Source: a virus. From it: a stretch of DNA of 42,019 nt. A model generated the notes under the pieces. The model was not told where the DNA came from, searched no databases, and worked only from the letters and a program-made list of their open reading frames with translations. The translations under genes were made by a program, and so were the position numbers. Location of the stretch: positions 1 through 42,019 of IMG/VR virus record IMGVR_UViG_3300033388_002837, one strand, 5' to 3'. Shown in pieces: positions 2,443-34,913 of this stretch. Position 1 is the first letter of the stretch, and each line of letters opens with the position of its first letter.

Positions 2443-2458
2443 GCCGGGTTTCCCCGGC
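2443..2458 (-). promoter_or_regulatory. GNRA-tetraloop leader hairpin, copy 1
   Basis: Transcribed strand: GCCGGG-GAAA-CCCGGC, a 6-bp perfect stem with a GAAA (GNRA) loop, then CACAAAGGAGGAGG and the start codon of the 37-aa gene. No U-tract follows, so it does not look like an intrinsic terminator. Related copies are at 2660-2675, 34605-34620 and 34898-34913. Confidence 0.7.
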
Positions 2459-2469
2459 GGTTAATCATA

Positions 2470-2646
2470 TTAGAAGATTAAAGACCCTGCCCAAACTGCG
2501 CAACCACTCGAAATAAGCAACAATAAAACGTCTGTTCCTATTGAGTTTTTAATGACCCTTGGATAACTGCAAAAAGAAATGACTAATCCTCTTAACAATA
2601 TCCCCACTATCCCAACCCAAAAACTTACAGTTATATAAAACTCCAT
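2470..2646 (-). CDS. Small membrane protein (58 aa)
   Basis: ATG 2646 follows a perfect AGGAGG. Two hydrophobic segments are visible: residues 3-20 (FYITVSFWVGIVGILL) and 40-57 (VLLLLISSGCAVWAGSLIF), joined by a short polar loop with Arg, Lys and Asn. This is a two-pass inner-membrane topology. No recognised family. It shares the hairpin-plus-SD leader (hairpin 2660-2675) with its downstream neighbour and with two genes on the far side of the genome. Confidence 0.65.
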   Translation of the reverse strand: MEFYITVSFWVGIVGILLRGLVISFCSYPRVIKNSIGTDVLLLLISSGCAVWAGSLIF

Positions 2647-2659
2647 GGTTCCTCCTAAT

Positions 2660-2675
2660 GCCGGGTTTCCCCGGC
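2660..2675 (-). promoter_or_regulatory. GNRA-tetraloop leader hairpin, copy 2
   Basis: Same 16-nt core as copy 1 on the minus strand (GCCGGG-GAAA-CCCGGC), followed by ATTAGGAGGAACC and the start codon at 2646. The SD stays outside the stem, so it is exposed rather than sequestered. Confidence 0.7.
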
Positions 2676-2681
2676 TAATCG

Positions 2682-2834
2682 TTAGCGTATGGTGAATGCT
2701 CCTACTGCGGTTGTCCAGTTGGTAGTTCCCATGGTGTCCATTAAGAGGAACTGGTCTGCTTCTTCGACTGGCATTTCAGAAAAGTCTTCGTAAGTTGCGT
2801 ATTGGCCGTCTGTATATTTGATTTGGTATTTCAT
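2682..2834 (-). CDS. Small phage protein (50 aa), first gene of the leftward operon
   Basis: Start ATG 2834 lies behind AAAAGGAG. The sequence opens MKYQIKYTDGQYATYEDFSE, a short beta-rich module of a kind often seen in tiny phage proteins. The rest is acidic, then WTTAVGAFTIR. It is the promoter-proximal gene of the leftward operon, about 35 bases downstream of the predicted start site. No function is recognised. Confidence 0.6.
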   Translation of the reverse strand: MKYQIKYTDGQYATYEDFSEMPVEEADQFLLMDTMGTTNWTTAVGAFTIR

Positions 2835-2875
2835 GTTGGGCTCCTTTTAAGTTGGTTTTCGTTTGGTTCTGATTC

Positions 2876-2904
2876 AACGTACATTTTGTGATGGGGTATG
2901 TCAA
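2876..2904 (-). promoter_or_regulatory. Leftward early promoter
   Basis: On the minus strand, TTGACA (2899-2904) is followed after 17 bp by TACGTT (2876-2881): a consensus -35 and a weak -10. It would drive the leftward small-gene and replication operon. Three CGTTAT units lie immediately upstream of its -35. Confidence 0.5.
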
Positions 2905-2905
2905 G

Positions 2906-2931
2906 CGTTATTCGTTATTAATATTCGTTAT
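2906..2931. promoter_or_regulatory. Candidate operator array (three CGTTAT units)
   Basis: CGTTAT occurs at 2906-2911, 2913-2918 and 2926-2931. The last two sit inside a 9-bp direct repeat ATTCGTTAT (2910-2918 and 2923-2931). The array lies between the divergent -35 elements, where a Cro-like protein (66 aa or 80 aa, both nearby) could control both promoters. Confidence 0.45.
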
Positions 2932-2952
2932 GAAAATTAATAATTAAAATAC

Positions 2953-2980
2953 TTGACTCCTCGTGATGGGATGGTATGGT
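2953..2980 (+). promoter_or_regulatory. Rightward early promoter
   Basis: TTGACT (2953-2958), a 16-bp spacer, then TATGGT (2975-2980). It fits sigma70 and lies about 30 bases before the first gene of the rightward recombination operon. Confidence 0.5.
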
Positions 2981-3012
2981 TGTTCAAACACCAACGAAAA
3001 GGAATTAACAAT

Positions 3013-3213
3013 ATGGACCTGAAATACAAAACAAGATTAAACGCGGCAATTGCAGCTACTGGGAAAAAGAAAAAAGATATCGCGGATGAGCTCGATATCC
3101 CCAGGGCAACCTTTTATTCTTTATGTGCAGGGCACGTTATGCCAGGACCAAGAGGGATACTGGCAGCTTACCTCGGCAAAACCGTTAAGCACCTGTTTGG
3201 GGGGTATCGATAA
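3013..3213 (+). CDS. Cro/XRE-like HTH regulator (66 aa)
   Basis: ATG 3013 follows AAAAGGAATT. The protein is one HTH domain: helix 1 RLNAAIAATG, then KKKKDIADELDI and PRATFYSLCAGHVMPG, matching the Q/K-x3-A-x3-G/I...P..T spacing of XRE repressors. The C-terminus (ILAAYLGKTVKHLF) closes the fold. It is the first gene after the divergent control region, the usual position of a Cro protein. It probably binds the CGTTAT repeats upstream (inference). Its stop overlaps the next ATG by one base. Confidence 0.7.
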   Translation: MDLKYKTRLNAAIAATGKKKKDIADELDIPRATFYSLCAGHVMPGPRGILAAYLGKTVKHLFGGYR

Positions 3214-3428
3214 TGGATGTAACTTTAAAAAATTGCGAATCTCCCGAAGACATGATCAAGGCTGTAAAGATAATAAATAGGTTTGTACTTTCTTTTTCAT
3301 CTGGCGATTGCGGTAAAGAGTGCGCTTACAAGATGGGCAAAGATGCATTGCTTGTGAAGTTAACCAAGGCTGGAAACGTCATAGGGACTAAATCAAGAGT
3401 AGTTTGGTTACCAAGTCTTGACAAATGA
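3213..3428 (+). CDS. Small phage protein (71 aa)
   Basis: Starts at ATG 3213, which shares one base with the preceding stop (TAATG). A run of six G lies upstream as SD. The protein is Cys-containing (CGKEC) and mixed alpha/beta, with a beta-like second half around DALLVKLTKAGNVIG. No family recognised. Its position in the compact early operon suggests an accessory factor. Existence is supported by the coupling and by a frame open to the next gene. Confidence 0.6.
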   Translation: MDVTLKNCESPEDMIKAVKIINRFVLSFSSGDCGKECAYKMGKDALLVKLTKAGNVIGTKSRVVWLPSLDK

Positions 3429-3446
3429 TAACCCACGGAGGCAAAT

Positions 3447-3548
3447 ATGACAAGCTTCGAAGCATACGAAATGATCATGAACGAAATGCGCAAGGGGCAG
3501 AGAAAGCAGGCGATAATTTTAGCAAAGAAGCTTTGGAGGTTTTTGTAA
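3447..3548 (+). CDS. Very small helical protein (33 aa)
   Basis: A short frame with a good SD (CGGAGG, then 6 bases to ATG 3447) and a stop that overlaps the next start (TAATG at 3546-3550). The peptide is a single amphipathic, basic helix containing NEMRKGQRKQAIILAKKLW. It is preferred over a 138-aa frame through the same DNA starting at 3425, because that frame's first 41 codons lack an SD of their own and read like an out-of-frame sequence. Function unknown. Confidence 0.5.
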   Translation: MTSFEAYEMIMNEMRKGQRKQAIILAKKLWRFL

Positions 3549-3841
3549 TGGGGAAAATATCAATAGCAGACAAATACTGTCCCAAGGGAAACACGTTTTG
3601 GGAACTTGCAGACGCAGATGGGGACGCAGACGGTAACGGATTGCATATCGAGTGCACCTATAACGCCAAGCTTGAGATTGTTGAATATTGGCTCAACAGA
3701 GAACTTGTGGAGCAGGACAGCCTGATTGTCTTATTAGCAGACCTCTACGACAACGAGCAGACAGAAATGGATATCATAGACCACGAGATTACCGAAGAGG
3801 GGCACAGGATGTATTTAAGAGAGCATGGGGGAGAATTGTAA
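3548..3841 (+). CDS. Acidic phage protein (97 aa)
   Basis: Start ATG 3548 overlaps the stop of the 33-aa gene, and GGAGG sits 9 bases upstream. The sequence is strongly acidic, with an ADADGDADGNG stretch around residues 20-30 that resembles a Ca-binding loop but is not a clear EF-hand. A helical C-terminus follows. The stop overlaps the erf start by one base, so it is translated just ahead of the recombinase. It may partner the recombination system, on context only. Confidence 0.6.
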   Translation: MGKISIADKYCPKGNTFWELADADGDADGNGLHIECTYNAKLEIVEYWLNRELVEQDSLIVLLADLYDNEQTEMDIIDHEITEEGHRMYLREHGGEL

Positions 3842-4488
3842 TGACTGAAATAAATATGAATCTGCGCCAGAAGCTTGTTGAGATTAGGAAATCAATAGAG
3901 TTTTTGCAGAAAACAGAAAAGGGAGACCGGGGGAATTACGTTGACGCAGCGGTATTGCTCCACAAAATACGGGAAGGCATGAACACATATGGCGTTTTGC
4001 TTTCTCCATCCATAACAAATGCCGTGACAAAGCAGGTAGAAGCTCCGACAAAGAACAGTTCAACCAATAAAGATTTCATGGTTGATCTTCACATGTCTTA
4101 TGCCTGGCACGATTCAGGCTCTGACGAGATAATAGTCGTTCCGTGGTTCGCTACTGGAACCCACATGAAAGACCCCTCTATGGCATTTGGAGGGGCACTG
4201 ACATACTCTGAAAGATACTTTCTTATGAAATATTTCCAGATCCCAACATCAAACGACGATCCAGAATTGTTCGAACAAAAAACAACAGAGTACGTGTCCA
4301 ATACTCAGGTTTTAGAACTTCAAAACATGGTAAATAGCAAAGGTTTCCCGGTAGATGCGACACTTCAGGCATTTGCAGCAAAAAGAATGAACGTTCAAAA
4401 CATCTGGAGCCTTCCGGAAAGTAAGTTTGATGAGGCCAAGGGGCTAATAAATGCCCTGGAACCTAAGAAGGAGGCTGCTGAAAAATGA
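3841..4488 (+). CDS. erf: ERF-family single-strand annealing protein
   Basis: 215 aa, close to P22 Erf. The family signature is plain: GALTYSERYFLMKYFQI at residues 118-134, followed by DD at 139-140. ERF proteins form rings that anneal complementary ssDNA and are used in phage recombination and genome circularisation. The N-terminal 60 residues (VEIRKSIEFLQKTEKG, DAAVLLHKIREGM) also follow the family pattern. The C-terminal region (residues 150-215) is helical and probably contacts ssDNA-binding or host proteins. It is followed with a 4-base overlap by an Exo-type nuclease, its usual partner. Confidence 0.88.
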   Translation: MTEINMNLRQKLVEIRKSIEFLQKTEKGDRGNYVDAAVLLHKIREGMNTYGVLLSPSITNAVTKQVEAPTKNSSTNKDFMVDLHMSYAWHDSGSDEIIVVPWFATGTHMKDPSMAFGGALTYSERYFLMKYFQIPTSNDDPELFEQKTTEYVSNTQVLELQNMVNSKGFPVDATLQAFAAKRMNVQNIWSLPESKFDEAKGLINALEPKKEAAEK

Positions 4489-5099
4489 TCCAGGGATCTC
4501 CAGAATGGTTCGCAGCCAGAATGGGCAAAATCACATCCTCAAGATTTGGGGATGTGATCGCAGCCCCGGCTACCAAGCGATACCAAAACTACCAACAAGA
4601 ACTTGTAGATGATCTCATGGGAGTTCCCCACTTCGGAGAAGATGATAAGCCATGGTTCCGGCATGGAAAGGAAATGGAACCTGAAGCAAGATCTCAATAC
4701 GAATGGTACATGTTTACTAAGGGGCATGAGGCCGAAGTTGAAGAAGTCGGGATGATAGTTCATCCTAAGCATGATTTCATTTCTTGTTCTCCAGATGGCG
4801 TAATTAATGGTTCTAAAGGTCTTGAAATAAAAAGCAGGATAAGCCACAAGGCACACCTTTCAAGCATAAAGGCAGGGCTGCCAAGCAACTACAAGCCGCA
4901 AGTCCAAGGTTCTCTTTGGGTGTCAGGGTTCGATGAGTGGGACTTCATATCCTTTTTTAAAGACCCTGACGGCATGGTCGATATGGATCTAAACGTTACC
5001 ACCGTGTTTCCTGATCTTAGTTATTTTGAAAGGCTTGAAGGCGCTTGTCTGAGATTTTGGGAAGAGGTCCAAATACGAGTTAACCAAATATCAATTTAA
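4485..5099 (+). CDS. YqaJ/lambda-Exo-type recombination exonuclease
   Basis: 204 aa. PD-(D/E)xK nuclease features are in order: GSPEWFAAR at 4-12, HGKEMEPEA at 60-68, SPDG at 102-105 (catalytic D104), LEIKS at 113-117 (E114, K116) and a PQVQG motif at 138-142. This family degrades one strand from dsDNA ends to give the 3' overhang loaded by the annealing protein. It overlaps the erf stop by 4 bases (ATGA), so the two-component recombinase is co-translated. In a phage with a P22-like head it would help form circles or concatemers from terminally redundant DNA (inference). Confidence 0.88.
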   Translation: MIQGSPEWFAARMGKITSSRFGDVIAAPATKRYQNYQQELVDDLMGVPHFGEDDKPWFRHGKEMEPEARSQYEWYMFTKGHEAEVEEVGMIVHPKHDFISCSPDGVINGSKGLEIKSRISHKAHLSSIKAGLPSNYKPQVQGSLWVSGFDEWDFISFFKDPDGMVDMDLNVTTVFPDLSYFERLEGACLRFWEEVQIRVNQISI

Positions 5100-5108
5100 G
5101 GGGATGAC

Positions 5109-5426
5109 ATGGTTATTAATAAATATAAAACAGGGATAGAGAATTTTTATCTGATAATTTCCCACAAAAAAAATGGGGAGACAAACTCGTCATATATTCT
5201 GGTTAATGATAAAAATACCAGCATGGTTGAAATCATTCCGAAATACGGGCCACTCACAATTTTAAATCAAGAAAATGTTTTGGAATCTTACCTTGATGGA
5301 AAAATTATTGACCGAGGGAACTGGGACCAAGAGTCGTTTGATGAATCAGGAATAAACGCCTTGCTTAGTGCGGGAGAGATTGAGGGTGTTATGAGGGTTA
5401 TGAAAGAAAGGTTACCCAACTACTAA
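5109..5426 (+). CDS. Phage hypothetical protein (105 aa)
   Basis: Start ATG 5109 behind AAGGGGATGAC. A soluble alpha/beta protein with a beta-rich first half (YLIISHKKNG, SSYILVND) and a helical end (INALLSAGEIEGVMRVMKERL). No recognised family. It follows the exonuclease by 9 bases in the recombination operon. It may be a recombination accessory or nuclease modulator, on context only. Confidence 0.6.
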   Translation: MVINKYKTGIENFYLIISHKKNGETNSSYILVNDKNTSMVEIIPKYGPLTILNQENVLESYLDGKIIDRGNWDQESFDESGINALLSAGEIEGVMRVMKERLPNY

Positions 5427-5467
5427 CCAGCCCACAGCCCTGGCAACGGGGCGGGATAGGAGATAGC

Positions 5468-5602
5468 ATGGCAATAATAACAGGGCTTATCGCAATCATC
5501 ATAGGAGCATGGATGGGACACGCGATGACAGAGTGGGTCAAGCGGGACGTTCGCGCAAATAACTACACCAACGCCCTTCGGGGCACAAAGGATATGACAT
5601 GA
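5468..5602 (+). CDS. Small membrane-anchored protein (44 aa)
   Basis: ATG 5468 follows the SD AGGAG. The N-terminal 15 residues (AIITGLIAIIIGAWMG) form one transmembrane segment. The remainder is basic and polar, ending RGTKDMT. The stop overlaps the start of the wHTH gene (ATGA). A GCCC-TTCG-GGGC hairpin lies in the last part of this gene, upstream of the next SD. Function unknown. Confidence 0.6.
   Translation: MAIITGLIAIIIGAWMGHAMTEWVKRDVRANNYTNALRGTKDMT
5573..5584 (+). promoter_or_regulatory. UUCG hairpin upstream of the wHTH gene
   Basis: GCCC-TTCG-GGGC, a 4-bp stem capped by UUCG, lies inside the 3' end of the 44-aa gene, with the SD AAAGGAT of the next gene a few bases after it. It is similar in kind to the other stable hairpins placed before SDs. 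Confidence 0.4.
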
Positions 5603-5949
5603 AAATAACAATCATAATGGCCGAGATGAAAATCATAATTGACACAGAAAGCGGAATCGTCGAGACAGAAAAAAAAACGATCACCCCGGCCCAGCGTGAG
5701 GCTGCTCTTAAAACACTCAGAATCAAACCCGCTAAACATTGCCCAGCTGCAAAGCCCAACGGGGAAGTATCAAATAAAATACTTGAAGCTCTGGCGGGTC
5801 GGAACGTTAGCCCATGCGGAGCCAGTGTCGAGCAGATTAAGGCCATGACAGGGTTAACAGGGAAGCGAACAGTAGCGAACGCTCTGTACAAGCTGCATAA
5901 GGCGGGGCTGGTGGAATCAGTTCGCCGCGGAGTGTATGTGAAGGCATGA
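5599..5949 (+). CDS. Winged-helix DNA-binding protein (116 aa)
   Basis: The C-terminal half is a winged helix-turn-helix: VSNKILEALAGR (residues 57-68), then ASVEQIKAMTGLTGKRTVANALYKL, then a wing AGLVESVRRGVYVKA. This is the general MarR/DprA-tail type used to read DNA. The first 30 residues are beta-rich, and KPAKHCPAAKP forms a linker. It probably regulates early genes or recognises phage DNA. ATG 5599 overlaps the upstream stop, and a second in-frame ATG follows 6 codons later. Confidence 0.65.
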   Translation: MKITIIMAEMKIIIDTESGIVETEKKTITPAQREAALKTLRIKPAKHCPAAKPNGEVSNKILEALAGRNVSPCGASVEQIKAMTGLTGKRTVANALYKLHKAGLVESVRRGVYVKA

Positions 5950-6296
5950 AAGACCACCACGATATACAAAAGTTGAAAGCAGGATACGTTAAGGCAAACC
6001 TTGACCTTAAAACATTTAATGAAGAGCTTGAGTCTTTAGTGGATCCCAAAAGCGTAACCGAAAGAGATTACAGGGTAGGACGGGCCAAGGCTACGATTAG
6101 ACTTAAAGATGAGAAAGTCGCCGCAACAATAAGTAAAGCAATCGTTGATGGAGAGACGGCAGATTTAAGGATGGAAAGAGATGTTGCTAAGTCCATGTGG
6201 GATGTTTGCAAAGCCAATATAGAACGATGCCACAAGCACATTGAATCTTACCGGACTCTGGTGAGTCTGGCTAAAACGGAGATTAACTTGAAATAG
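5946..6296 (+). CDS. Coiled-coil phage protein (116 aa)
   Basis: Almost entirely helical and highly charged. Heptad-like stretches run through residues 10-30 and 60-110 (around AKATIRLKDEKVAATISKAI, ANIERCHKHIESYRTLVSLAK). Proteins of this size and composition are common beside phage annealing-protein/exonuclease pairs, but I cannot name the family. ATG 5946 overlaps the previous stop. It may act as a recombination accessory or nuclease inhibitor, from context only. Confidence 0.6.
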   Translation: MKDHHDIQKLKAGYVKANLDLKTFNEELESLVDPKSVTERDYRVGRAKATIRLKDEKVAATISKAIVDGETADLRMERDVAKSMWDVCKANIERCHKHIESYRTLVSLAKTEINLK

Positions 6297-6309
6297 GGAA
6301 AATGATATT

Positions 6310-6558
6310 ATGAAAAGAAATTTCATGAAAATAAAATTAACAGACGAACAAATCAAACAAATGGAACCTCTTTTTGATGAAGCTGAAAAATATCATCTGC
6401 CTGGGGTTAGGAATGGTGCAGTTATGGCACAGGCCAAGGTTGACCTCGCGACAAGGAAAGACGGCGTGCTTGTCGTTGGATTCGTAGGGCAGGAGCATGG
6501 GTTAATGATAGCGGAAATCCTCAATAATGCGTTCAACCCTGGGGACACGAAGTTATGA
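6310..6558 (+). CDS. Phage hypothetical protein (82 aa)
   Basis: Starts at ATG 6310 (or the internal ATG 6325; the SD AGGGAAAA favours the first only weakly). The fold looks like a helix (DEQIKQMEPLFDEAEKYH) followed by a beta strand (GVLVVGFVG) and another helix (GLMIAEILNNAFN). No family recognised. Its stop overlaps the start of the HNH-like gene (ATGA), so it is translated in the same block. Confidence 0.6.
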   Translation: MKRNFMKIKLTDEQIKQMEPLFDEAEKYHLPGVRNGAVMAQAKVDLATRKDGVLVVGFVGQEHGLMIAEILNNAFNPGDTKL

Positions 6559-6848
6559 ATCCACAGCCAAAACAAAAGCCCCTGCGCTCCAAGAAGGCAA
6601 GAGGATGGTTCCGGGGGCAACCGTGCCACATGTGCGGGTCTACTGAAACAACCGGACATCATGAGCCCTTGAATGGGCATGGAATGGGCAGCAAAGGGCC
6701 AGATGATCAACAAATACCTATGTGCTTTGGTTGTCACCGAATGAGACATGATGTTGGTAGAGACACCTTTTACAAGGCATATAGTATGGATTGGCGGGAG
6801 TCCGTTAAATACTACAAACAGCAGGTTAACGAATCAATAAAGGGGTAG
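6555..6848 (+). CDS. HNH / DUF968-like zinc nuclease (97 aa)
   Basis: A small Cys/His-rich protein: CHMC near residues 24-27, a GHHEP motif near 34-38, then CFGCHRMRH around 57-65. This His/Cys arrangement matches phage HNH-like and DUF968-type proteins, in which the HH pair lies in the active site and the CxxC pairs hold zinc. The short FYKAYSMDW helix and a basic tail complete it. Its neighbours suggest a role in recombination or DNA processing. Whether it is active cannot be told. Confidence 0.65.
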   Translation: MNPQPKQKPLRSKKARGWFRGQPCHMCGSTETTGHHEPLNGHGMGSKGPDDQQIPMCFGCHRMRHDVGRDTFYKAYSMDWRESVKYYKQQVNESIKG

Positions 6849-6858
6849 GGGGTTGGGA

Positions 6859-7239
6859 ATGGAAATACTTGAAGAAATGACCAAGGACGAATTGAAAAGA
6901 TACATCCGTGGGCACGTAGGGTTTTGCATGCATCCACCAAAAAAAAGCGATCTGTTATTTTGGCGATGGGAAAATGAATCGGCAAAGCTCGATCTCAGGT
7001 CAAAGAAGAATATAGAATATGGTAGCAGTCTTAACATGGGAGAACGTGACAGGCTTGCGCGGCTATTTAATGCCACTCAGGATATTAATGAGCGGGTATC
7101 CTATGCTAATAAAATGAAACCATATGAGCAACAACTCAAGCAATATCTTGATGAGTCAAGAAGCATTATGGCGGGTGAACGTAAGAATCAAAAGCTTTAC
7201 GACTCGATAAATATTGAGAGACAAAAAGAAAACAAATAG
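6859..7239 (+). CDS. Helical phage protein (126 aa)
   Basis: ATG 6859 is chosen (a TTG two codons earlier is possible), with GGGGTAGGGGG as SD. The protein is charged and largely helical. The N-terminal LEEMTKDELKRYIRGH resembles a SAP- or HeH-type short helical start. The middle NMGERDRLARLFNATQDINERVSYANKM and the C-terminal half read as coiled coil. No family recognised. It lies between the HNH-like and RyR-like genes. Confidence 0.6.
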   Translation: MEILEEMTKDELKRYIRGHVGFCMHPPKKSDLLFWRWENESAKLDLRSKKNIEYGSSLNMGERDRLARLFNATQDINERVSYANKMKPYEQQLKQYLDESRSIMAGERKNQKLYDSINIERQKENK

Positions 7240-7248
7240 CCTTCGGGC
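7239..7248 (+). promoter_or_regulatory. Short UUCG hairpin before SD
   Basis: GCC-TTCG-GGC directly after the preceding stop, then GAGGGGGATGG and the ATG at 7260. The stem is only 3 bp, but the UUCG loop is very stabilising. It fits the pattern of hairpin-plus-SD leaders in this phage. Confidence 0.3.
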
Positions 7249-7259
7249 GAGGGGGATGG

Positions 7260-7568
7260 ATGATTGATTTAAAAGCACTAAAAGACAATAAAGAGGCAAT
7301 CGCAGCTAAAGTTCATGACGCATGGTGGGACGAGAAGGAGAACCAGGGGTTTCATAGTCCAATAAACTGTTTTTCAATTGATGCGGAAGTTGCACATAAT
7401 ATAGTAGAAATATCGTCAGGCGAACATCAGTTCCCAAAGTTCCGCAAGTTTTGCGACAAGTGCCACACCGACATGTATCCGTATCCCGACCTTCCGGAGC
7501 ATGTCAAAGATTATGACCGGGTAACAGTGGACGCTGTTATTAAGGCGATTGAGGATTTGGATATTTAA
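7260..7568 (+). CDS. RyR-like domain protein (102 aa)
   Basis: The N-terminal AAKVHDAWWDEKENQGF and the C-terminal PYPDLPEHVKDYDRVTV (around residues 78-94) with DAVIKAI match the layout of RyR domains, whose usual core is His-x2-Trp...Gly and PY..LPE.EK.YDR. Some phage and bacterial small proteins carry one such domain and may bind nucleotide-like ligands. Two CxxC-like Cys (CDKC) lie between. This is the last gene of the first rightward operon, and a terminator follows. The assignment rests on pattern recall, not on a search. Confidence 0.6.
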   Translation: MIDLKALKDNKEAIAAKVHDAWWDEKENQGFHSPINCFSIDAEVAHNIVEISSGEHQFPKFRKFCDKCHTDMYPYPDLPEHVKDYDRVTVDAVIKAIEDLDI

Positions 7569-7575
7569 ATAGCAT

Positions 7576-7600
7576 AGCCCTTCGGGGCTTTGTCTTATTG
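7576..7600 (+). terminator. Intrinsic terminator of the recombination operon
   Basis: AGCCC (7576-7580), UUCG loop (7581-7584), GGGCT (7585-7589), then a T-rich tail TTGTCTTATTG. Short stem but a very stable loop. It sits right after the RyR-like gene and before a new promoter. Confidence 0.65.
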
Positions 7601-7613
7601 TTTGACTTAACAG

Positions 7614-7642
7614 TTGACAGTTGCGCGGATATCATCTACTAT
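7614..7642 (+). promoter_or_regulatory. Strong sigma70-type promoter of the rha operon
   Basis: TTGACA (7614-7619), 17-bp spacer, TACTAT (7637-7642). Transcription would start about 20-25 bases before the SD AAGGAGG of the Rha gene. A second TTGAC lies 12 bp upstream. Confidence 0.7.
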
Positions 7643-7671
7643 TAATTAAACATTAAGAAAAGGAGGTCACT

Positions 7672-8325: not shown

Positions 8326-8555
8326 TGGAAAAGTTAACGAGCGCAATGAAAGAAATTCACGAAATGGAAACAGAGGCAACTCTAAGATCGAATGTAATCA
8401 TAGAGAGGCTTTACAATTTTGCCCAAAACGAAGGATTGACTATTCCGAAGGAGATATGCGGTGAGATTGAAAACTTGAACGAAATATATACAACACTTCT
8501 CGGGAAAAGAATAGCGGCCAATGACCTTCTTGAAATAATGAAAAGCGCAATTTAA
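8322..8555 (+). CDS. Small helical protein (77 aa)
   Basis: Starts at ATG 8322, overlapping the Rha stop (ATGA), with GGAGG upstream. The protein is an uninterrupted charged helix in its first half (SAMKEIHEMETEATLRSNVIIERLY) and helical again at the C-terminus (ANDLLEIMKSAI), so a coiled-coil dimer is likely. Translational coupling with Rha suggests that they act together (inference). No family recognised. Confidence 0.65.
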   Translation: MMEKLTSAMKEIHEMETEATLRSNVIIERLYNFAQNEGLTIPKEICGEIENLNEIYTTLLGKRIAANDLLEIMKSAI

Positions 8556-8585
8556 CCAAAACCAAATAACAAAGGGGATGATGTG

Positions 8586-8807: not shown

Positions 8808-8836
8808 CCAAAACCAAACAAGAAAGGATAGGGGAT

Positions 8837-9109: not shown

Positions 9110-9116
9110 CCCCCAG

Positions 9117-9147
9117 ACCTCGGCAAGTCGCGAAACTGCCGGGAGGT
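9117..9147 (+). promoter_or_regulatory. SD-sequestering leader hairpin, copy 1
   Basis: ACCTC (9117-9121) pairs with GAGGT (9143-9147), GGC (9122-9124) with GCC (9138-9140), and AGT with ACT around a CGCGAA loop. The 3' arm is the SD (GGGAGGT) of the gene starting at 9151, so the fold would block ribosome binding. A near-identical copy lies at 9572-9602. Confidence 0.7.
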
Positions 9148-9150
9148 GAT

Positions 9151-9318
9151 GTGGAAGATTACGAAGCGAAATATTATGAACTAAAAAAGTTCCTGATTAA
9201 TTTAAGGCCCTATTGTGATACCTGCAAACATAGTGACAACGAAAGCGTGTGTGATGAGTGCAACAGAAAAGCCTTTAACTGGTCTTTTGATGAAAAAGTC
9301 TTAAATAAGGATGGGTGA
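9151..9318 (+). CDS. Small zinc-ribbon protein (55 aa)
   Basis: GTG 9151 lies four bases after the SD GGGAGGT, itself locked in a hairpin. The protein has CDTC (residues 22-25) and CDEC (34-37) around KHSDNESV, a compact four-Cys zinc knuckle. The N-terminus is helical (YEAKYYELKKFL). The TGA stop overlaps the next ATG by one base. Tiny four-Cys proteins are frequent in phage early operons, and their role is mostly unknown. The start by GTG and the SD hairpin suggest low or conditional expression. Confidence 0.6.
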   Translation: MEDYEAKYYELKKFLINLRPYCDTCKHSDNESVCDECNRKAFNWSFDEKVLNKDG

Positions 9319-9557: not shown

Positions 9558-9571
9558 TTCAATAACCATAG

Positions 9572-9602
9572 ACCTCGGCAAGTCCCAAAACTGCCGGGAG
9601 GT
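9572..9602 (+). promoter_or_regulatory. SD-sequestering leader hairpin, copy 2
   Basis: Same arms as copy 1: ACCTCGGCAAGT at the 5' side and ACTGCCGGGAGGT at the 3' side. Only the apical loop differs (CCCAAA in place of CGCGAA). The ATG of the next gene follows at 9606. Both arms are kept while the loop varies, which supports an RNA fold. Confidence 0.7.
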
Positions 9603-9605
9603 GGT

Positions 9606-9833
9606 ATGGATTTAATATATGCTCCTGCAAGGCATGTCGCTCATCATAATGGGTATCCGATAACGGGGGTTTTTATAGCAAAAAGGCTTGCTCTTTTTAT
9701 TATGTACAAAAATAGCCTTGGCAAATGGAGATTTCCGTTGGTTGTATTACCGCATGAAAGAGTAAACATCATGCACCACAACGCAGCCATGGTTTCTCTT
9801 TATAACGGAACTGTTTATTTAACCAAGAAGTAG
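9606..9833 (+). CDS. Phage hypothetical protein (75 aa)
   Basis: ATG 9606 follows GGGAGGTGGT, whose SD is the 3' arm of a hairpin. The product is basic and His-rich (RHVAHHNG, NIMHHNAA), with beta-like segments GVFIAKRLALFIMY and FPLVVLP. It is not clearly transmembrane. No family recognised. The histidines could bind metal, but their spacing matches no motif I know. Confidence 0.6.
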   Translation: MDLIYAPARHVAHHNGYPITGVFIAKRLALFIMYKNSLGKWRFPLVVLPHERVNIMHHNAAMVSLYNGTVYLTKK

Positions 9834-9842
9834 GGAGGTGAT

Positions 9843-10274: not shown

Positions 10275-10275
10275 T

Positions 10276-10614: not shown

Positions 10615-10624
10615 TAAGGTAATC

Positions 10625-10756: not shown

Positions 10757-10757
10757 C

Positions 10758-23617: not shown

Positions 23618-24369
23618 TAACGGATCTCCCGGAGTTCAAAATTAATAAGCCGGGTAAATACTCGACCGGTATCCGAGGTTGCCACTATTTTTACCTGAAG
23701 AAAACCACTTGGCCTGCTATCATCACCCAATCCTGTCGCCTGGATCCTGTAATTTACGCCAGGAGTTGACAAAGAATTAGACAATATGGTTAACCCAGTA
23801 TCAGCCTCGATTGTGTAGTTTGTGATGTCTTCAATGTTGCTAAGGACAGAATCGAAATGCTCCGTAAAATCGTCAACGTTCCCGATAAACATCTTGTTTG
23901 TTTTGCAGGAAATCGGTGCTTGTTCGACTGGTCTGTGAAACCTGTTCCATCTGGTTGTGTAGCGCGTTGCCCCGCTTCCTCTCGGCATGCGAGATGGATA
24001 TTGAGTTGGCCTGACTTGGGCTGTTGCTGAGGAGATAAAAGAAAAAGAGGCTCTACGCCTTGACATTAACAGAGGATCTGGTTGCATTCCTTTACCAAAA
24101 GTGGATAGCAATCTCACTGCGAGATTTGTTATGAACGCTTCCCAATATTCTCGTGGAACATTATGAACACTTCCCGAATCGGGCTCATCTTCAAAATTAT
24201 AACCTACGCAGATATTGCGCCCAGGGGATCCCCATTCCGCTGCCATGTTTTCGAGCATCGCAAGCACAAGCGTAAGTTCCGGACCCGTTGCCTTCTTTGT
24301 CAAGCCAGATATTCTGGCCTCATCAAATGCGCTGTCCACGAAATCACCTTTAAGGCTACCTGTGATCAT
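23617..24369 (-). CDS. Head completion protein, P22 gp4-like with C-terminal extension (250 aa)
   Basis: The first 150 residues follow the gp4 family: ELTLVLAMLENMAAEW, NICVGYNFEDEPDSGS, EAFITNLAVRLLSTFGKG, SRMPRGSG. In P22, gp4 binds below the portal and starts tail assembly. P22 gp4 is about 166 aa. Here 80-90 extra residues follow, beta-rich (IEADTGLTILSNSL, FLQVKIVATSDTG, LINFELREI), similar to a small immunoglobulin-like or decoration domain. ATG 24369 is chosen with GGAG eight bases upstream. It overlaps the gene before it by 14 bases. Confidence 0.78.
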   Translation of the reverse strand: MITGSLKGDFVDSAFDEARISGLTKKATGPELTLVLAMLENMAAEWGSPGRNICVGYNFEDEPDSGSVHNVPREYWEAFITNLAVRLLSTFGKGMQPDPLLMSRRRASFSFISSATAQVRPTQYPSRMPRGSGATRYTTRWNRFHRPVEQAPISCKTNKMFIGNVDDFTEHFDSVLSNIEDITNYTIEADTGLTILSNSLSTPGVNYRIQATGLGDDSRPSGFLQVKIVATSDTGRVFTRLINFELREIR

Positions 24370-24631
24370 TAGCAAGCTCCGCTTTCAGGGTTTCAATCCT
24401 GGCTTTCTTCCAGTTATCAATGCCAACATCCTTTGCCATCCGTCTGACTTGTTTATTGCTCATGCCATCAAGGTCCAAAGGGACATCAGATATGAGATAG
24501 GCATCTTCCGGGGAGATAAACCAACCATCACCCATCGCCACCCGCATCTCGTCAGGCTTAAAAGTTTGCATCTCACAGACTGTCCCCCGTATGTTATGAG
24601 TCGTGCCCTGCCGGTATAGTGCAACAGCCAT
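24356..24631 (-). CDS. Small head/neck protein with HeH/LEM-like C-terminus (91 aa)
   Basis: The N-terminal half has the pattern ALYRQGTTHNIRGTVCEM, DEMRVAMGDGWFISPEDAY, common in small phage proteins between coat and neck genes. The C-terminal 30 residues (MSNKQVRRMAKDVGIDNW, then KKARIETLKAEL) form a HeH/LEM-like DNA- or protein-binding helical hairpin. It lies between the coat-region genes and gp4-like, overlapping the latter. Probably a minor virion protein. The function is not known. Confidence 0.6.
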   Translation of the reverse strand: MAVALYRQGTTHNIRGTVCEMQTFKPDEMRVAMGDGWFISPEDAYLISDVPLDLDGMSNKQVRRMAKDVGIDNWKKARIETLKAELANDHR

Positions 24632-24672
24632 GGTATTCCTTTGAGTGACGGGATTTCTCCCGCCATTAAATG

Positions 24673-25194: not shown

Positions 25195-25242
25195 ATTATT
25201 TTCTCCATAGTGCATGGGCGAGAAGTCTCGCCCTATTTAATA

Positions 25243-27494: not shown

Positions 27495-27586
27495 TTGGCT
27501 TCTCCTTGTAACCTTCCACGACTGCCGCCGTTTTTTCGGTAGGTTTTTCGCCTTGTGGGTTTCGCCCTGGTGGGCAGTAAATAAAA

Positions 27587-27643: not shown

Positions 27644-27665
27644 GAGTGTTTCAATACCTAATATT

Positions 27666-28021: not shown

Positions 28022-28060
28022 ATTAGTCCCCCGTTAGTGCTTAACTAAGTTATTGATTGC

Positions 28061-30193: not shown

Positions 30194-30194
30194 A

Positions 30195-31667
30195 TTATCT
30201 CCGTCCCATTGGTCTGATTGGTGTTGGCATTTTAAATTTTGGTTTCCCGCTTTCGATATCTCCAACAGGTTTCGCAAATCTTTCCATCATCTTACCGTAC
30301 CGCCCTGCATCAAGTAAGTCATCTCGAACTTTGATGATTGTACCCTTTCCGTCACCTGATCTATGATATTGTCTATGTTCTTCCATGTAATCAGGCTGGC
30401 CCCTGAATATCTTAAACTTACCCTTTTTCTGGAGATCATTAATCATATATATTCCACTCTCAACAGAGTTGCCCCCGCCAATCCATGTGGCATGATTAGG
30501 AAGCATCTTAAACCCAGCCTTAATGTAGTGTTCTTTTTGCATGCGGTTCACATCTCTGCCCTTCTCATGCTGTAACCCGTCATGAGGCCATGCAACCGGG
30601 ATGCCTTTAGCCCATGACTGTACGGCTCCCCACGCATCATTAGCGCTTACCTCTCTGGCCTTCCAGCTGTTTACAACATAAGTGATATCGTTATCAGGAT
30701 CAAACGCCAACTTCACAAACCCTTGGGGATGATCATATCCAAAGTCCATACCAATTATAACGTTCCAGAAATCAGGAATATCAAACGGGTCACACAATAT
30801 GAACTCATCTGCAATGTCATAGATACGCCCATGACCAAGCATCGGTTCACCTTCGGACCTCATCTTTCTTTGGTGTTCAGGATATTGGGCAAGCAGCCGT
30901 TCTTTCTTTTCTTCGGTCATATGAGGAGCATCATTCCAACCCACCTGCATGTATGTCTGGTCTTTGCTTGCGTTGTCAGAGAATTGTATAACTAATTCTG
31001 TGCGCCCGTTCTCGGGGGTAAACGTGTAAATAATTCTTCCACCTTTGCCGCGGTCCCCGTTTATTGTTCGGGTCAGAAGCTGTGGTCTGATTGATTGATC
31101 CTTTGGTTCCTCGTCCACATGCACCCAATCCACAACGTCACCCATGATAGCGTGTTGTCCCTGAGTGTATGACCAAAACTGTACCACCGCTGTTCCGAGC
31201 TTATGTTTTACCCGGATTGTTCGCATTGCGTTGACTGTGCCCTGCGCTGATTCCCAACTAAGGATATCTTCCTTCTTGACCAGGCCACCGGCAAACCCTC
31301 CGGAAGTGGTATACTCTCCGAAGATTTCCTTCTGCAAAAGATCACGGGTCTTCTCCATGGAATAACCAAGCAACCAAGCAACCGGAGCGTGTTTAAATTT
31401 ATGCCCCGGGTAATCATCTGGATAGTCTCCAGTTAAATGATAAGCGTCGATGGTTGTACCTGATCTCGTTTTCCCAATTTGATTAGCCGCACAAAGACAA
31501 GTCTCGAAAAACTCCTTAGTGCTGGCGCAAAACTTCCTCTGCCAGTCATAAAAAGAATCGTATTGCCTCCGGAGCCTGGACCCATCAAACCGCTTCTTCT
31601 TTTCCTTGAGAAGCTGAATCAGCTTGACCTTATCGGCCTTGCTCATGGCTTTGGGGTTCTTACTCAT
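30195..31667 (-). CDS. terL: Terminase large subunit, P22 gp2-like (490 aa)
   Basis: ATG 31667 (a TTG one codon earlier is possible). ATPase motifs: the P-loop variant AANQIGKT at 60-67 and Walker B WVHVDEE at 181-187. The RNase H-like nuclease begins MDFGYDH, with D308 as the first catalytic acid. The protein packages DNA and cuts concatemers, in P22 by the headful mechanism. Its 5' end overlaps terS. Headful packaging would give circularly permuted DNA, consistent with a contig that breaks at an arbitrary site. That last step is inference. Confidence 0.9.
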   Translation of the reverse strand: MSKNPKAMSKADKVKLIQLLKEKKKRFDGSRLRRQYDSFYDWQRKFCASTKEFFETCLCAANQIGKTRSGTTIDAYHLTGDYPDDYPGHKFKHAPVAWLLGYSMEKTRDLLQKEIFGEYTTSGGFAGGLVKKEDILSWESAQGTVNAMRTIRVKHKLGTAVVQFWSYTQGQHAIMGDVVDWVHVDEEPKDQSIRPQLLTRTINGDRGKGGRIIYTFTPENGRTELVIQFSDNASKDQTYMQVGWNDAPHMTEEKKERLLAQYPEHQRKMRSEGEPMLGHGRIYDIADEFILCDPFDIPDFWNVIIGMDFGYDHPQGFVKLAFDPDNDITYVVNSWKAREVSANDAWGAVQSWAKGIPVAWPHDGLQHEKGRDVNRMQKEHYIKAGFKMLPNHATWIGGGNSVESGIYMINDLQKKGKFKIFRGQPDYMEEHRQYHRSGDGKGTIIKVRDDLLDAGRYGKMMERFAKPVGDIESGKPKFKMPTPIRPMGRR

Positions 31668-32067
31668 CAACGCCCTGGCTTAAAGATTCTATTTCTGCGT
31701 CAAGCTCTGCGTTGGTTTTGTTTTCCAGGGATAGACCTCCGGACAATTCCAGCCTGTCCTTAACCTTGCCCTCTGTCCTGTCAAGATATTCCCGGATAGC
31801 TTTAACGTTTCCCGTCTTAGCCTCTGCCAATAGAGCATCGTAAACAGCGTTCCGCTGTTTAACCGATTGCCTCTTCCTTAGATCCAGTGCTTCCGCTTCT
31901 ATTTCGCACAACTGATCAATAGTAAAACACTTATAAAGCCCGGCTACCGTCTTGTATTTGAGCACAGACAAAGCCATGTCTTTTCTGTTCGGGAAATCAT
32001 TTTCGGGATCGCCCATGAACAATAGCAATGTCTCTCTATGTTTGTCTGCCGCTGTCCTATCGTCCAT
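31660..32067 (-). CDS. terS: Terminase small subunit (135 aa)
   Basis: Immediately upstream of terL with an 8-base overlap. A helical N-terminus with an HTH-like region (DMALSVLKYKTVAGLYKCFT), a coiled middle (CEIEAEALDLRKRQSVKQRN) and the family-like C-terminus KTGNVKAIREYLDRTEGKV. It recognises the pac site and recruits TerL. ATG 32067 is preceded by AAAAGGA. In P22 the pac site lies inside this gene; no such site can be picked here by eye. Confidence 0.8.
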   Translation of the reverse strand: MDDRTAADKHRETLLLFMGDPENDFPNRKDMALSVLKYKTVAGLYKCFTIDQLCEIEAEALDLRKRQSVKQRNAVYDALLAEAKTGNVKAIREYLDRTEGKVKDRLELSGGLSLENKTNAELDAEIESLSQGVDE

Positions 32068-32102
32068 TTATAAATCCTTTTCCTGATATCCTGCCAACTT
32101 TT

Positions 32103-32130
32103 ATTATATAATACCCGGCTTAGTGGCTAA
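32103..32130 (-). promoter_or_regulatory. Possible weak promoter before terS
   Basis: A perfect -10 (TATAAT, minus strand 32103-32108) within an AT-rich run, but the -35 (TTAGCC at 32125-32130, 16-bp spacer) is poor. It could add terminase expression to read-through from the upstream structural genes. Confidence 0.3.
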
Positions 32131-32166
32131 TTCTTGGCGAGTCATAAAGTATAACCTCCCGCCATG

Positions 32167-32562
32167 CTAACCCTTCTTCCCCACAACCCCATCCCAACCG
32201 GGGAAATTCTTGATTACATTGCCATCCTCATCCACATGCGTTCCGGCCAATTCCGGATATAGCGCAAACAACACATCCTGCTCGTCCTGTCTGCACACAT
32301 AAAACGGCATGTAGCCCTCAGTTACAAACTCTGTCAGTGCTTCCGTCAGCGTAGTCCCGTTTGATGCAGCCATAAAATCATCGACCACTCTCCATTCGAC
32401 TTGCACCCCAACCAACTCCAAACCGTCCAGCATTATTCCAGGCCTGTAAAATGTGGAGTGTATCGACAACGGCAACAAATCATCATCACACATGAGCGCC
32501 ACTTTCCGCGCGCCAATTTCCTCGGGTGTTAGCCGGGTCCATATACATATAGATTCTGTCAT
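32167..32562 (-). CDS. Accessory virion-operon protein (131 aa)
   Basis: ATG 32562 overlaps the previous stop. Soluble, acidic, mixed alpha/beta. Notable pieces are RLTPEEIGARKVAL, the strand segment LDGLELVGVQVEWRVVDD, then TALTEFVTEGYMPFYVCRQ. It resembles small assembly or baseplate-side proteins but no family can be named. It lies between a large beta-rich protein and terS, outside the canonical P22 order. Confidence 0.55.
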   Translation of the reverse strand: MTESICIWTRLTPEEIGARKVALMCDDDLLPLSIHSTFYRPGIMLDGLELVGVQVEWRVVDDFMAASNGTTLTEALTEFVTEGYMPFYVCRQDEQDVLFALYPELAGTHVDEDGNVIKNFPGWDGVVGKKG

Positions 32563-33902
32563 AGCGCCTCGATTAGTAGCGGTTTAATTTGTTTTGAGAA
32601 TGGAGAGACATCCCACGACAGATAAACCCACGCCTTGCCCTCTCCGTCCACATCAACAATGATGTGCCCTGTGGAATCCTGCGCGGCTCCCCAAACAATC
32701 CCACCACCATCATCAACGCCAATCTGGAAATATCTACCACCAGGCAAAACCCCGGCATCTATCATATCGTTTTCATCGCCGTAACGGATCTTAAATGAGT
32801 ACTCAGTGTTTGCAGCCCAGTCCAAATCATACTCCGCGACATTCGTTCCATCGTCGGATAGCAGTTTCCCGCCTGTCCCGCCATCGTTTTTAAGCAGTAA
32901 CACGCTATCGATCCCGGCTATTGTGCTCAGGACGTTAGTAGTCTCATTTGATGCTAATATTGTATTCCATGCCGCTGCGTTGATCATACCCGATGATATC
33001 TGGGTTCGGATTGGGTCGACGAGCTGTACAGAGTTGGCCACTGATAATGCAAGTGTCGAGGATGCCGTAAATCTATCACCAGCCACCAAACCTACTCCGA
33101 AATAATCTGCTGTGGTTGCGATTATCTCATAATGATCATCTATCGATAGGGTCCCGGTTTCGAGGATTGCCCCTGAAGACTTACCTCTCGTCAAATCCAA
33201 CTCAACAGGAGTCATCTCCTTGCGAGTTTGGGTTGTTGCTGCGAGTGTTGTAGCCCCGAGTCTTGAGCTTGGGATTACTGATATGGGTAGGGTTTTGGAT
33301 TCAATGAGTCGTGGTAGGCGGAAATAGAGTTTGGCTCCAACATTCGCTGATTCTGTACGCACTCTCAATAGACGAGTATTGTCAGATGGAGTGACACTGC
33401 TATTGCCGATAGCGGATATTGTGCTACCAAATTTTACAAAATCTGTAGGTATAAAATTCAAATACGCCTGTATCTCACCAGTTATTAGATCTTCAGTAAA
33501 CCCTTCTATTGCCCACGAATGCGCATTTGTATTACCCACGAGTCCATTTATTTGGAAAACAGCTGACCCAGAATTAAAAGAAGTTATTTCAACTAAATAC
33601 CACTCTGCGCCGTATTTTTCTACAATCACTGGTTCTGACGAGATACTGTTTAGTGTGACTATCCCGTCAACACTCCCCTGAGGTATCCCATCGCACAGCA
33701 CCTTGTTCGTGTATGATGGCTCGGTGAGGATAAAATCCCCAACCCACGCCACCACATCAGCCGCATACTCAACCAACCGATCGCCGATTTTGACGGATAC
33801 CGACCCATCCCTTCGTTGAGTCCAGCGCTTTCCAATTGTCCGAGCCCCGTTCAATATCCACGACAACGGGTGCCCTATTGGCCCATGGAATATGTGTCGC
33901 AT
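32559..33902 (-). CDS. Large beta-rich accessory virion protein (447 aa)
   Basis: ATG 33902 abuts the preceding stop. Segments read as beta-strands throughout: GDFILTEPSYTNKV, VVEKYG-like loops, LVEITSFNSGSAVFQING, GAKLYFRLPRLIESKTLPIS, and a C-terminal part YSFKIRYGDENDMIDAG, GGRYFQIGVDDGGGIVWGAA, AWVYLSWDVSPF that resembles a concanavalin-like or carbohydrate-binding sandwich. It may be a receptor-binding or capsid-surface protein. It is the second gene after the strong late promoter. Confidence 0.55.
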   Translation of the reverse strand: MRHIFHGPIGHPLSWILNGARTIGKRWTQRRDGSVSVKIGDRLVEYAADVVAWVGDFILTEPSYTNKVLCDGIPQGSVDGIVTLNSISSEPVIVEKYGAEWYLVEITSFNSGSAVFQINGLVGNTNAHSWAIEGFTEDLITGEIQAYLNFIPTDFVKFGSTISAIGNSSVTPSDNTRLLRVRTESANVGAKLYFRLPRLIESKTLPISVIPSSRLGATTLAATTQTRKEMTPVELDLTRGKSSGAILETGTLSIDDHYEIIATTADYFGVGLVAGDRFTASSTLALSVANSVQLVDPIRTQISSGMINAAAWNTILASNETTNVLSTIAGIDSVLLLKNDGGTGGKLLSDDGTNVAEYDLDWAANTEYSFKIRYGDENDMIDAGVLPGGRYFQIGVDDGGGIVWGAAQDSTGHIIVDVDGEGKAWVYLSWDVSPFSKQIKPLLIEAL

Positions 33903-34189
33903 CAGCGGGTTTCCCCGAGTTTTACAATGAGATTTGGCGTGCCTGTTTTGGATTTAGCGTAGAACAAAACCCTATTCGTGGGGATAATGTACGCCTCAGT
34001 GAACATAACCTCGGCTTCTATTGTAATTTCGTATGCACCAGCGTCACTCCAGGCCTGGAAATATGCTGGCAGTCCTTCAACCCAATACGTCACAACCCGC
34101 GCCTTATCATGAGACGGATAATCCTTCGGTATTTCAATAGCCGTGTATGTGCTTGCATTCAATGGAATAATTATCGGTTTAGCTATCAT
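33902..34189 (-). CDS. Small virion-type protein, first gene of the late operon (95 aa)
   Basis: ATG 34189 lies about 40 bases after a perfect-consensus promoter, with GAGG upstream. The sequence has the form of small beta-sandwich structural proteins: PIIIPLNASTYTAIEIPK, then a central AYEITIEAEVMFTEAYII, and VLFYAKSKTGTPNLIVKLGE. The pattern of LN.STYTAIEIP and LFYAKS.TGTP.L.V is shared by small structural proteins of several phages. Probably decoration or tail-associated. Confidence 0.6.
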   Translation of the reverse strand: MIAKPIIIPLNASTYTAIEIPKDYPSHDKARVVTYWVEGLPAYFQAWSDAGAYEITIEAEVMFTEAYIIPTNRVLFYAKSKTGTPNLIVKLGETR

Positions 34190-34228
34190 AAAAACCTCAT
34201 AAATTTAGATTTAACATTATTTTCTTTT

Positions 34229-34257
34229 ATTATAGTAACATACGCGGGGGATGTCAA
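34229..34257 (-). promoter_or_regulatory. Perfect consensus sigma70 late promoter
   Basis: On the minus strand, TTGACA (34252-34257), 17-bp spacer, TATAAT (34229-34234). It drives the virion operon leftward. A full-consensus promoter is expected to be strong and in need of repression; inverted repeats lie some 40-65 bp upstream. Confidence 0.8.
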
Positions 34258-34293
34258 TCTATGGCTATTTTGTGTTAATTATTTTCTATCTTT

Positions 34294-34322
34294 CTTGATT
34301 AAATGTATTGCAATTAATCAAG
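34294..34322. promoter_or_regulatory. Operator-like inverted repeat
   Basis: CTTGATTAA (34294-34302) and TTAATCAAG (34314-34322): a perfect 9-bp inverted repeat with an 11-bp gap. A further half-site-like TTTAATCAGG lies 12 bp downstream. The right arm overlaps the spacer of the rightward promoter, so a bound dimer would block it. Confidence 0.6.
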
Positions 34323-34336
34323 AGGCATGTTACATT
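34308..34336 (+). promoter_or_regulatory. Rightward promoter of the short right-side operon
   Basis: TTGCAA (34308-34313), 17-bp spacer, TACATT (34331-34336). It overlaps the right arm of the inverted repeat and leads to the gene starting at 34386. Confidence 0.5.
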
Positions 34337-34385
34337 TAATCAGGATCAAGAAGGAAACCACTAACCCGGCACACAGGTGAAAATC

Positions 34386-34598
34386 ATGAAAACCCAAATC
34401 ACAAAAAGCCAGAAAAAAACAATCAAAATTTTCTCAGACGACATCGGAAATATTAAGTTTCTTGAAAGCGACACAGTGATAAGCGCAGATTTTACCGGGA
34501 CAGAACATGAAGCATGGGGGCGACAGGAGTTCAGGACAGAAGCAGGGAAGGATGCCACGCAGAGATTTTGTGAATTTTACTGTAACCATATTCAATAA
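34386..34598 (+). CDS. Small phage protein (70 aa)
   Basis: ATG 34386 with CAGGTG as SD. A basic N-terminus (KTQITKSQKKTIKIF) then acidic beta-like segments (DIGNIKFLESDTVISADF) and a helical end (EFRTEAGKDATQRFCEFY). No family recognised. It is the first gene after the rightward promoter and thus could be an early regulator. The leader contains half of the GNRA hairpin (ACCCGGCACA) without its partner arm. Confidence 0.6.
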   Translation: MKTQITKSQKKTIKIFSDDIGNIKFLESDTVISADFTGTEHEAWGRQEFRTEAGKDATQRFCEFYCNHIQ

Positions 34599-34604
34599 TA
34601 ACCC

Positions 34605-34620
34605 GCCGGGGAGACCCGGC
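34605..34620 (+). promoter_or_regulatory. GNRA-tetraloop leader hairpin, copy 3
   Basis: GCCGGG-GAGA-CCCGGC on the plus strand, then ATAAAGGAGGAACTGAAC and the ATG at 34639. The loop differs from the other copies (GAGA versus GAAA) but stays within GNRA, which supports selection at RNA level. Confidence 0.7.
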
Positions 34621-34638
34621 ATAAAGGAGGAACTGAAC

Positions 34639-34884
34639 ATGATTAGACTAATGATAGCTATTATATTTATAGGCAGCATATACACACATCGCGTTGAACC
34701 AGAACAACTGACAGGTTTTATGACTGGAGGCATAACATTTCTTGGCATGATGTGCATAGTGTGTGGCTGGGGGGATCTTTATGATTACGAGTCGAGGTGG
34801 TCACCAGAACGTTGTATGTGCTCAATATTAGTTGGCGCGTTATTAACCATTGGTGGAATAGTTGTTATGTGCAATGTGGCTTAA
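34639..34884 (+). CDS. Three-pass small membrane protein (81 aa)
   Basis: ATG 34639 follows AAAGGAGGAAC. Hydrophobic segments: residues 3-15 (RLMIAIIFIGSIY), 26-43 (GFMTGGITFLGMMCIVCGW) and 59-80 (MCSILVGALLTIGGIVVMC). The loops hold acidic and basic residues (LYDYESRWSPER). It could be an exclusion or lysis-timing protein; no known family. It is one of four small membrane-type genes preceded by the GNRA hairpin. Confidence 0.6.
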   Translation: MIRLMIAIIFIGSIYTHRVEPEQLTGFMTGGITFLGMMCIVCGWGDLYDYESRWSPERCMCSILVGALLTIGGIVVMCNVA

Positions 34885-34897
34885 TTTTTAACTAACC

Positions 34898-34913
34898 GCC
34901 GGGGAAACCCGGC
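34898..34913 (+). promoter_or_regulatory. GNRA-tetraloop leader hairpin, copy 4
   Basis: GCCGGG-GAAA-CCCGGC followed by ACAAGAGGAACC and ATG 34926. The flanking TAACC at the 5' side and CAC at the 3' side also match copy 1, so the repeated unit is longer than the stem. Confidence 0.7.

Follow-up and report, generated by a model that had tools for sequence, protein, structure and literature searches.

The window analysed here is the entire virus record IMGVR_UViG_3300033388_002837, 42,019 bases long and without end repeats. It carries four copies of a hairpin, GCCGGGGNRACCCGGC (GCCGGG-GNRA-CCCGGC), each preceding the Shine-Dalgarno sequence (SD) of a gene for a small hydrophobic protein. This P22-like bacterial virus has genes for portal, coat, ejection and tail proteins of P22 type, for a DnaB-type helicase and for an Erf-type annealing protein. 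Among named phages, Pseudomonas phage AH02 and Vibrio phage 1.275.O come nearest (portal about 54% identical; coat 66 and 53%). No close relative was found when the helicase was queried against viral contigs, and megablast matched the first 20 kb to no phage. An Rfam scan of the window matched a tRNA alone, the hairpins giving nothing above a gathering score, and a scan of 12 loci returned zero family matches.

An exact pattern search retrieved exactly four matches to GCCGGGGNRACCCGGC in the window, all in the transcribed sense and where an earlier note, made from the sequence alone, had placed them. No further site was found in the window with up to two mismatches allowed. The expectation from shuffling was 0.08, and four matches were reached in none of 100 shuffles. 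All four copies are intercistronic and share one order: a stop codon, 6–13 nt, the hairpin, 3–7 nt and the SD of a co-directional gene (Table 1). The spacing to the SD described earlier thus holds in four out of four cases, but the term leader hairpin was only partly apt, since the copies lie 6, 6, 11 and 13 nt past an upstream stop and are not operon 5′ leaders. Each hairpin has a predicted energy of −12.6 kcal/mol with pair probabilities of at least 0.94, and the individual leaders fold moderately better than shuffled sequences (z −1.8 to −2.6). The transcribed strand has no U-tract after any of the four stems; AYAAAGGAG follows instead on the sense strand, and a consensus terminator scan detected a single terminator-like site, in antisense (34621–34604). 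Intrinsic termination is, therefore, ruled out, as the earlier note had argued. The loop is GAAA in three copies and GAGA in one. This variation had been taken as preserving the GNRA class; it does, but a single change within GAAA retains GNRA by chance one-third of the time, so it is weak evidence. Moreover, the stems are identical and offer no covariation, and the four copies alone are thus no proof that pairing is selected. The four downstream proteins, described earlier as membrane proteins, each contain a hydrophobic segment and matched no known family.

The coat-gene junction of P22-like relatives is more informative about structure. We took 80 loci with related coat genes and examined the 60 nt past the coat stop codon, which gave 61 unique sequences. 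A hairpin of at least 6 bp was present in 58 of them, compared with 7.6 in dinucleotide shuffles. These hairpins have 48 different 5′ arms, UUCG and GNRA are their commonest loops, and 21 of the 58 are accompanied by a T-run. The structure is kept while the sequence changes, the opposite of the outcome that the earlier note had named as damaging to its idea, namely a sequence kept in relatives without its stem. Across about 60 relatives, this comparison gives strong evidence that the structure itself is under selection at the coat junction. The P22 record (NC_002371.2) annotates a putative stem-loop after the coat gene, at 6102–6119, in a location like that of stem-loops in HK97 and lambda, and the window has its own at the homologous place. 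As in the four copies, a GC-rich hairpin there separates the stop codon of one gene from the SD of the following co-directional gene. In contrast, each genome has a single P22-type stem-loop, which lies at the coat junction and is often trailed by T's, while the four identical copies are found at small non-structural genes and have no U-tract. What is shared is the architecture, not the locus. A recurring leader is also seen at junctions past the coat gene in nine of the relatives (L323, L325, L330, L332, L344, L354, L359, L360 and L377). Its stem is variable, (U)GAACA(A)AGGAG comes next, and the SD is paired by an outer helix. This leader has no Rfam match and looks like a distinct SD-sequestering element.

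We favour, with a probability of about 0.5, the reading that hairpin and SD form a copied intercistronic unit that acts in RNA as a boundary. The hairpin would fold upon transcription and mark the border between two cistrons. It would stop the following SD from pairing with upstream sequence, and it may protect processed ends, both the 5′ end of the downstream piece and the 3′ end of the upstream one. Copying of the leader unit, SD included, to several small genes would account for the identical stems, and the same layout, built from unrelated stems, is found after the coat gene and at further junctions in P22-like phages and many others. Both effects have precedents. The intercistronic galE-galT hairpin of Escherichia coli blocks 3′–5′ exonucleases, as shown by its disruption and restoration (PMC9239205), and hairpins preceding a ribosome-binding site (RBS) are reported to expose it and to stabilise mRNA (PMC6993053; 5′ hairpins are also treated in PMC3997798). 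The effect on the SD was computed by forbidding the hairpin pairs in folding. In a longer context, predicted SD openness fell from 0.48 to 0.42, 0.30 to 0.04, 0.79 to 0.64 and 0.86 to 0.41 for copies 1 to 4, a strong drop in two of the four.

Several observations weigh against this reading. In a shorter context, the effect on SD openness is about zero for copies 1 and 2, and the remaining hairpins in the window give mixed results. A half copy of the unit marks a leader that has lost its stem, and a homologue of the 58-aa protein in Vibrio phage vB_VpaS_PGA (38% identical) is encoded by a gene without a hairpin before it. Finally, in the longer intergenic gaps of other phages, as delimited by a gene caller that misses genes under 40 codons, hairpins lie closer to the stop than to the start. 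Such placement speaks more for a function in the upstream gene than for SD insulation, and a function of this kind is no less likely than one in the leader.

Copying itself has left clear traces. Copies 1 and 4 share a 25-nt identity, which points to a probable common origin, and copies 2 and 4 have GAGGAACCATGGA in common downstream of the hairpin. The half copy, which the earlier note had put at about 34364–34373, is real, with slightly wider limits (Table 1). It equals copy 4 minus the 12-nt GCCGGGGAAACC, between two AACC repeats, and could have arisen by slippage deletion over the hairpin. The window holds nine non-tandem exact repeats of 15 nt or longer, and eight of them connect two leaders in the same sense; such recombination-like repeats support part of the earlier note's interpretation. 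At 14 nt or more, the proportion is 10 out of 22, compared with 0.10 expected, although some of these pairs belong to neighbouring genes and one (10251/10591) to paralogous genes. Leader-to-leader repeats also exceed expectation in other phage loci (58 versus 2.3), where they are concentrated in 22 out of 211 loci, and none was found in the two named relatives. The identical stems thus probably reflect copying of a hairpin and SD unit to several small genes. One might go further and imagine a dispersed plug-in translation leader, multiplied perhaps through the annealing recombinase, from which new small genes, mostly for membrane proteins, gain an insulated and stable RBS; we regard this extension as rather unlikely.

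The same repeats could instead mark a recombination linker, a shared junction at which recombination between leader copies could add, remove or exchange small genes, with the hairpin as a harmless passenger accompanying a good SD. Besides the excess of leader repeats and the 25-nt identity, this explanation draws on the half copy, which matches a deletion product, on the Erf-type annealing protein and on the homologue of the 58-aa gene that does without a hairpin elsewhere. It remains doubtful, because three other small membrane genes carry unrelated stems at the equivalent place, because relatives retain the stem and not the sequence, so that structure is under selection and not homology alone, and because an actual swap was seen in no relative.

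Nearly all longer repeats of the genome fall in translation leaders. Further exact leader-to-leader repeats of 14–25 nt occur between neighbouring genes at 8553/8805, 10251/10591 and 11399/11592 on the plus strand and at 39033/39235 and 40119/40404 on the minus strand. A separate leader repeat of 41 nt, 90% identical, lies at 9115–9155 and 9570–9610 (+). Its CCTC pairs with the SD, and it is possibly an SD-sequestering translational switch before the non-identical genes 9151 and 9606.

Hairpins of this kind are found well beyond the window. The exact GAAA hairpin is present in at least 120 viral-contig stretches, against 25 for a composition-matched non-hairpin control. A stop codon lies within 45 nt upstream in 82 out of 99 distinct sense copies, compared with 39 out of 98 antisense copies and 15 out of 49 control readings, a link to the upstream gene as tight as that to the SD and one that the label leader had hidden. 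T-runs accompany 24 of the sense copies, and 15 stand directly before an SD and start. When GAGG was required, most of 74 loci showed the order stop, hairpin, SD and start, in unrelated phages. The loci are from phages that had been selected because they carry a hairpin; the site used for selection is excluded, and frequencies among the loci are not those of all phages. GNRA and UNCG hairpins other than GCCGGGGNRACCCGGC peak 11–30 nt before SD-led starts on the sense strand only, in a count that includes the window's own copies. Among junction hairpins without a T-run, GNRA and UNCG loops number 39 in sense, compared with 2 of the reverse-complement classes, indicating that the element acts in RNA, as the earlier note had supposed. 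A GNRA loop was present at 9 out of 21 true stop-hairpin-SD-start sites of the stem versus 5 out of 89 other sites, after most of the bias from loci chosen for GNRA was taken out. An extended unit, ACCGCCGGGGNRACCCGGCAYAA, recurs in L126 and L397, two contigs unrelated to the window, where it again follows a stop codon and precedes the gene for a small soluble protein. It gave no significant match among isolated phages (the 39-nt query is a composite of the copies) and none in the bacterial and archaeal contigs searched, on which ground a host-derived repeat was rejected. In another locus (L142), repeated GTTAAGGTTAAC palindromes and TTGACGAATCAC motifs stand at gene starts, often past terminator-like hairpins, as operator or promoter arrays.

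The distribution around stop codons invites a second alternative, in which the hairpin is a 3′ element of the upstream gene, a stabiliser or a pause or attenuation site like the galE hairpin, and the SD is near merely because gaps between phage genes are short. The bias towards stops on the sense strand, the T-runs that outnumber copies before an SD, the hugging of the stop in longer gaps, the T-runs at coat junctions and the galE-galT precedent (PMC9239205) all agree with it. However, the four copies have no U-tract, the repeated unit takes in the SD and continues as far as the downstream start codon, and the leader with the half copy has no upstream gene on its own strand, so for the copies in the window we hold this explanation to be unlikely.

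All leaders of the window were folded in a search for pre-SD hairpins, which revealed five that the earlier note had missed (Table 1). A pre-SD hairpin precedes seven of the eight small membrane genes with an SD, compared with 2 of 25–28 small soluble genes, and four mutually unrelated stems are represented among those seven. Automatic tests of the link scored 6/8 and 5/6 genes (Fisher p=3.6e-4 and 6.9e-4), the association test in the window being post hoc. The only small membrane gene without a strong pre-SD hairpin, 38932–39036 (−; 34 aa), has a leader that is a near-copy of that of the soluble gene 39059–39238. Outside the window, the link was seen in 0 out of 22 cases in relatives and 8 out of 87 in other phage loci. 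The association with small membrane proteins described earlier is, therefore, real but confined to this phage, and a regulon of small membrane genes is ruled out as a general rule. Overall, the original observation is confirmed and its interpretation supported in part.

Table 1. Positions of the hairpins, the genes they precede and the repeats of the unit in the window
Feature	Coordinates	Strand	Context
Copy 1, GCCGGG-GAAA-CCCGGC	2443..2458	-	11 nt past stop of 58-aa gene; precedes SD of 37-aa gene
Copy 2, GCCGGG-GAAA-CCCGGC	2660..2675	-	6 nt past stop of 50-aa gene (2682-2834); precedes SD of 58-aa gene
Copy 3, GCCGGG-GAGA-CCCGGC	34605..34620	+	6 nt past stop of 70-aa gene (34386-34598); precedes SD of 81-aa gene
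Copy 4, GCCGGG-GAAA-CCCGGC	34898..34913	+	13 nt past stop of 81-aa gene; precedes SD of 26-aa gene
37-aa hydrophobic protein gene	2313..2426	-	
58-aa hydrophobic protein gene	2470..2646	-	
81-aa hydrophobic protein gene	34639..34884	+	
26-aa hydrophobic protein gene	34926..35006	+	
25-nt identity, TAACCGCCGGGGAAACCCGGCACAA	2439..2463	-	Copies 1 and 4; partner 34893..34917 (+)
Half copy, CTAACCCGGCACA	34361..34373	+	Leader of 70-aa soluble protein gene (34386-34598)
Unrelated pre-SD hairpin GCCTGCC-TCCG-GGCGGGC (UNCG loop)	1088..1105	-	Precedes 44-aa hydrophobic protein gene (942-1076)
Unrelated pre-SD hairpin, 9 bp, z -3.0	906..927	-	Precedes 32-aa hydrophobic protein gene (796-894)
Unrelated pre-SD hairpin GCCCTG-GCAA-CGGGGC	5437..5452	+	Precedes 44-aa hydrophobic protein gene (5468-5602)
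Hairpin GGGCGAG-ACTT-CTCGCCC	25216..25233	-	Coat-gene junction; position homologous to annotated P22 stem-loop
Hairpin TGGCGGGA-GAAA-TCCCGTCA	24646..24665	-	Precedes 91-aa gene (24356-24631); second junction after coat gene

Four identical hairpins ahead of small hydrophobic proteins, and the enrichment before membrane genes, could also suggest an operator, that is, a GNRA hairpin recognised by a phage RNA-binding protein that co-controls these genes. Among the seven hairpins, three differ in loop and are unrelated in stem, relatives and other phages do not show the association, and the broken fifth copy precedes a gene for a soluble protein, all of which make an operator quite improbable. A chance or compositional origin, to which only the moderate folding scores of the leaders lend anything, is refuted by the number and position of the copies and by the composition-matched control.

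Compared with known systems, the copied boundary unit that we favour is an element of a known kind; what is unusual is the dispersal of identical copies and the concentration of the genome's repeats in leaders. The galE-galT hairpin likewise joins two cistrons, is GC-rich and has a loop of 4 nt, and it is also proposed to stabilise a pause (PMC9239205), but it is a single host example without repeats and acts for the upstream gene. Synthetic 5′ hairpins and RiboJ-type insulators resemble the copies in that a hairpin directly before the RBS stabilises the mRNA and leaves the RBS exposed, yet they are engineered and placed at the transcript 5′ end, whereas the copies are natural and intercistronic (PMC6993053). 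In Cluster K mycobacteriophages, the SAS/ESAS elements also place an SD-containing repeat 3–7 nt before the starts of unrelated non-structural genes (PMC3203893). They consist of a 13-bp repeat, GGGATAGGAGCCC, and 17-bp imperfect inverted repeats, and half of the SAS have an inverted repeat just upstream. Changes in these repeats do not support RNA pairing, and their authors favour DNA-binding sites (PMC3203893). Membership in SAS/ESAS is ruled out for the copies in the window, whose repeat is TAACCGCCGGGGAAACCCGGCACAA with a perfect 6-bp RNA-type stem.

Junction stem-loops form a class that is already known, though the P22 record marks its own as putative and explanations are few. Their copied counterparts in leaders offer a compact system for studying one by one the insulation of the SD, the protection of mRNA and the shuffling of genes, and a way in which phages acquire small genes is suggested by the clustering of this genome's exact repeats in translation leaders.

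Two elements of phage T4 also invite comparison. The CUUCGG hairpins, which Tuerk reportedly described in 1988 as very stable tetraloop hairpins in phage mRNA, have a UUCG loop, whereas the copies in the window have GNRA loops. The PeSL of T4, said to have been presented by Arbiol in 2010 as mobile stem-loop cassettes used in gene shuffling, reportedly include an early promoter. Near the copies in the window there are only weak promoter-like matches: 6 at the right end, about the 5.1 expected from shuffles, and 9 at the left, where 5.1 are likewise expected. Elsewhere, a perfect sigma-70 consensus, TTGACA-17-TATAAT, is located at 34229–34257 (−), facing the minus-strand genes from 34189, and an 11/12 match to the sigma-70 consensus with TG lies at 773–746 (−).

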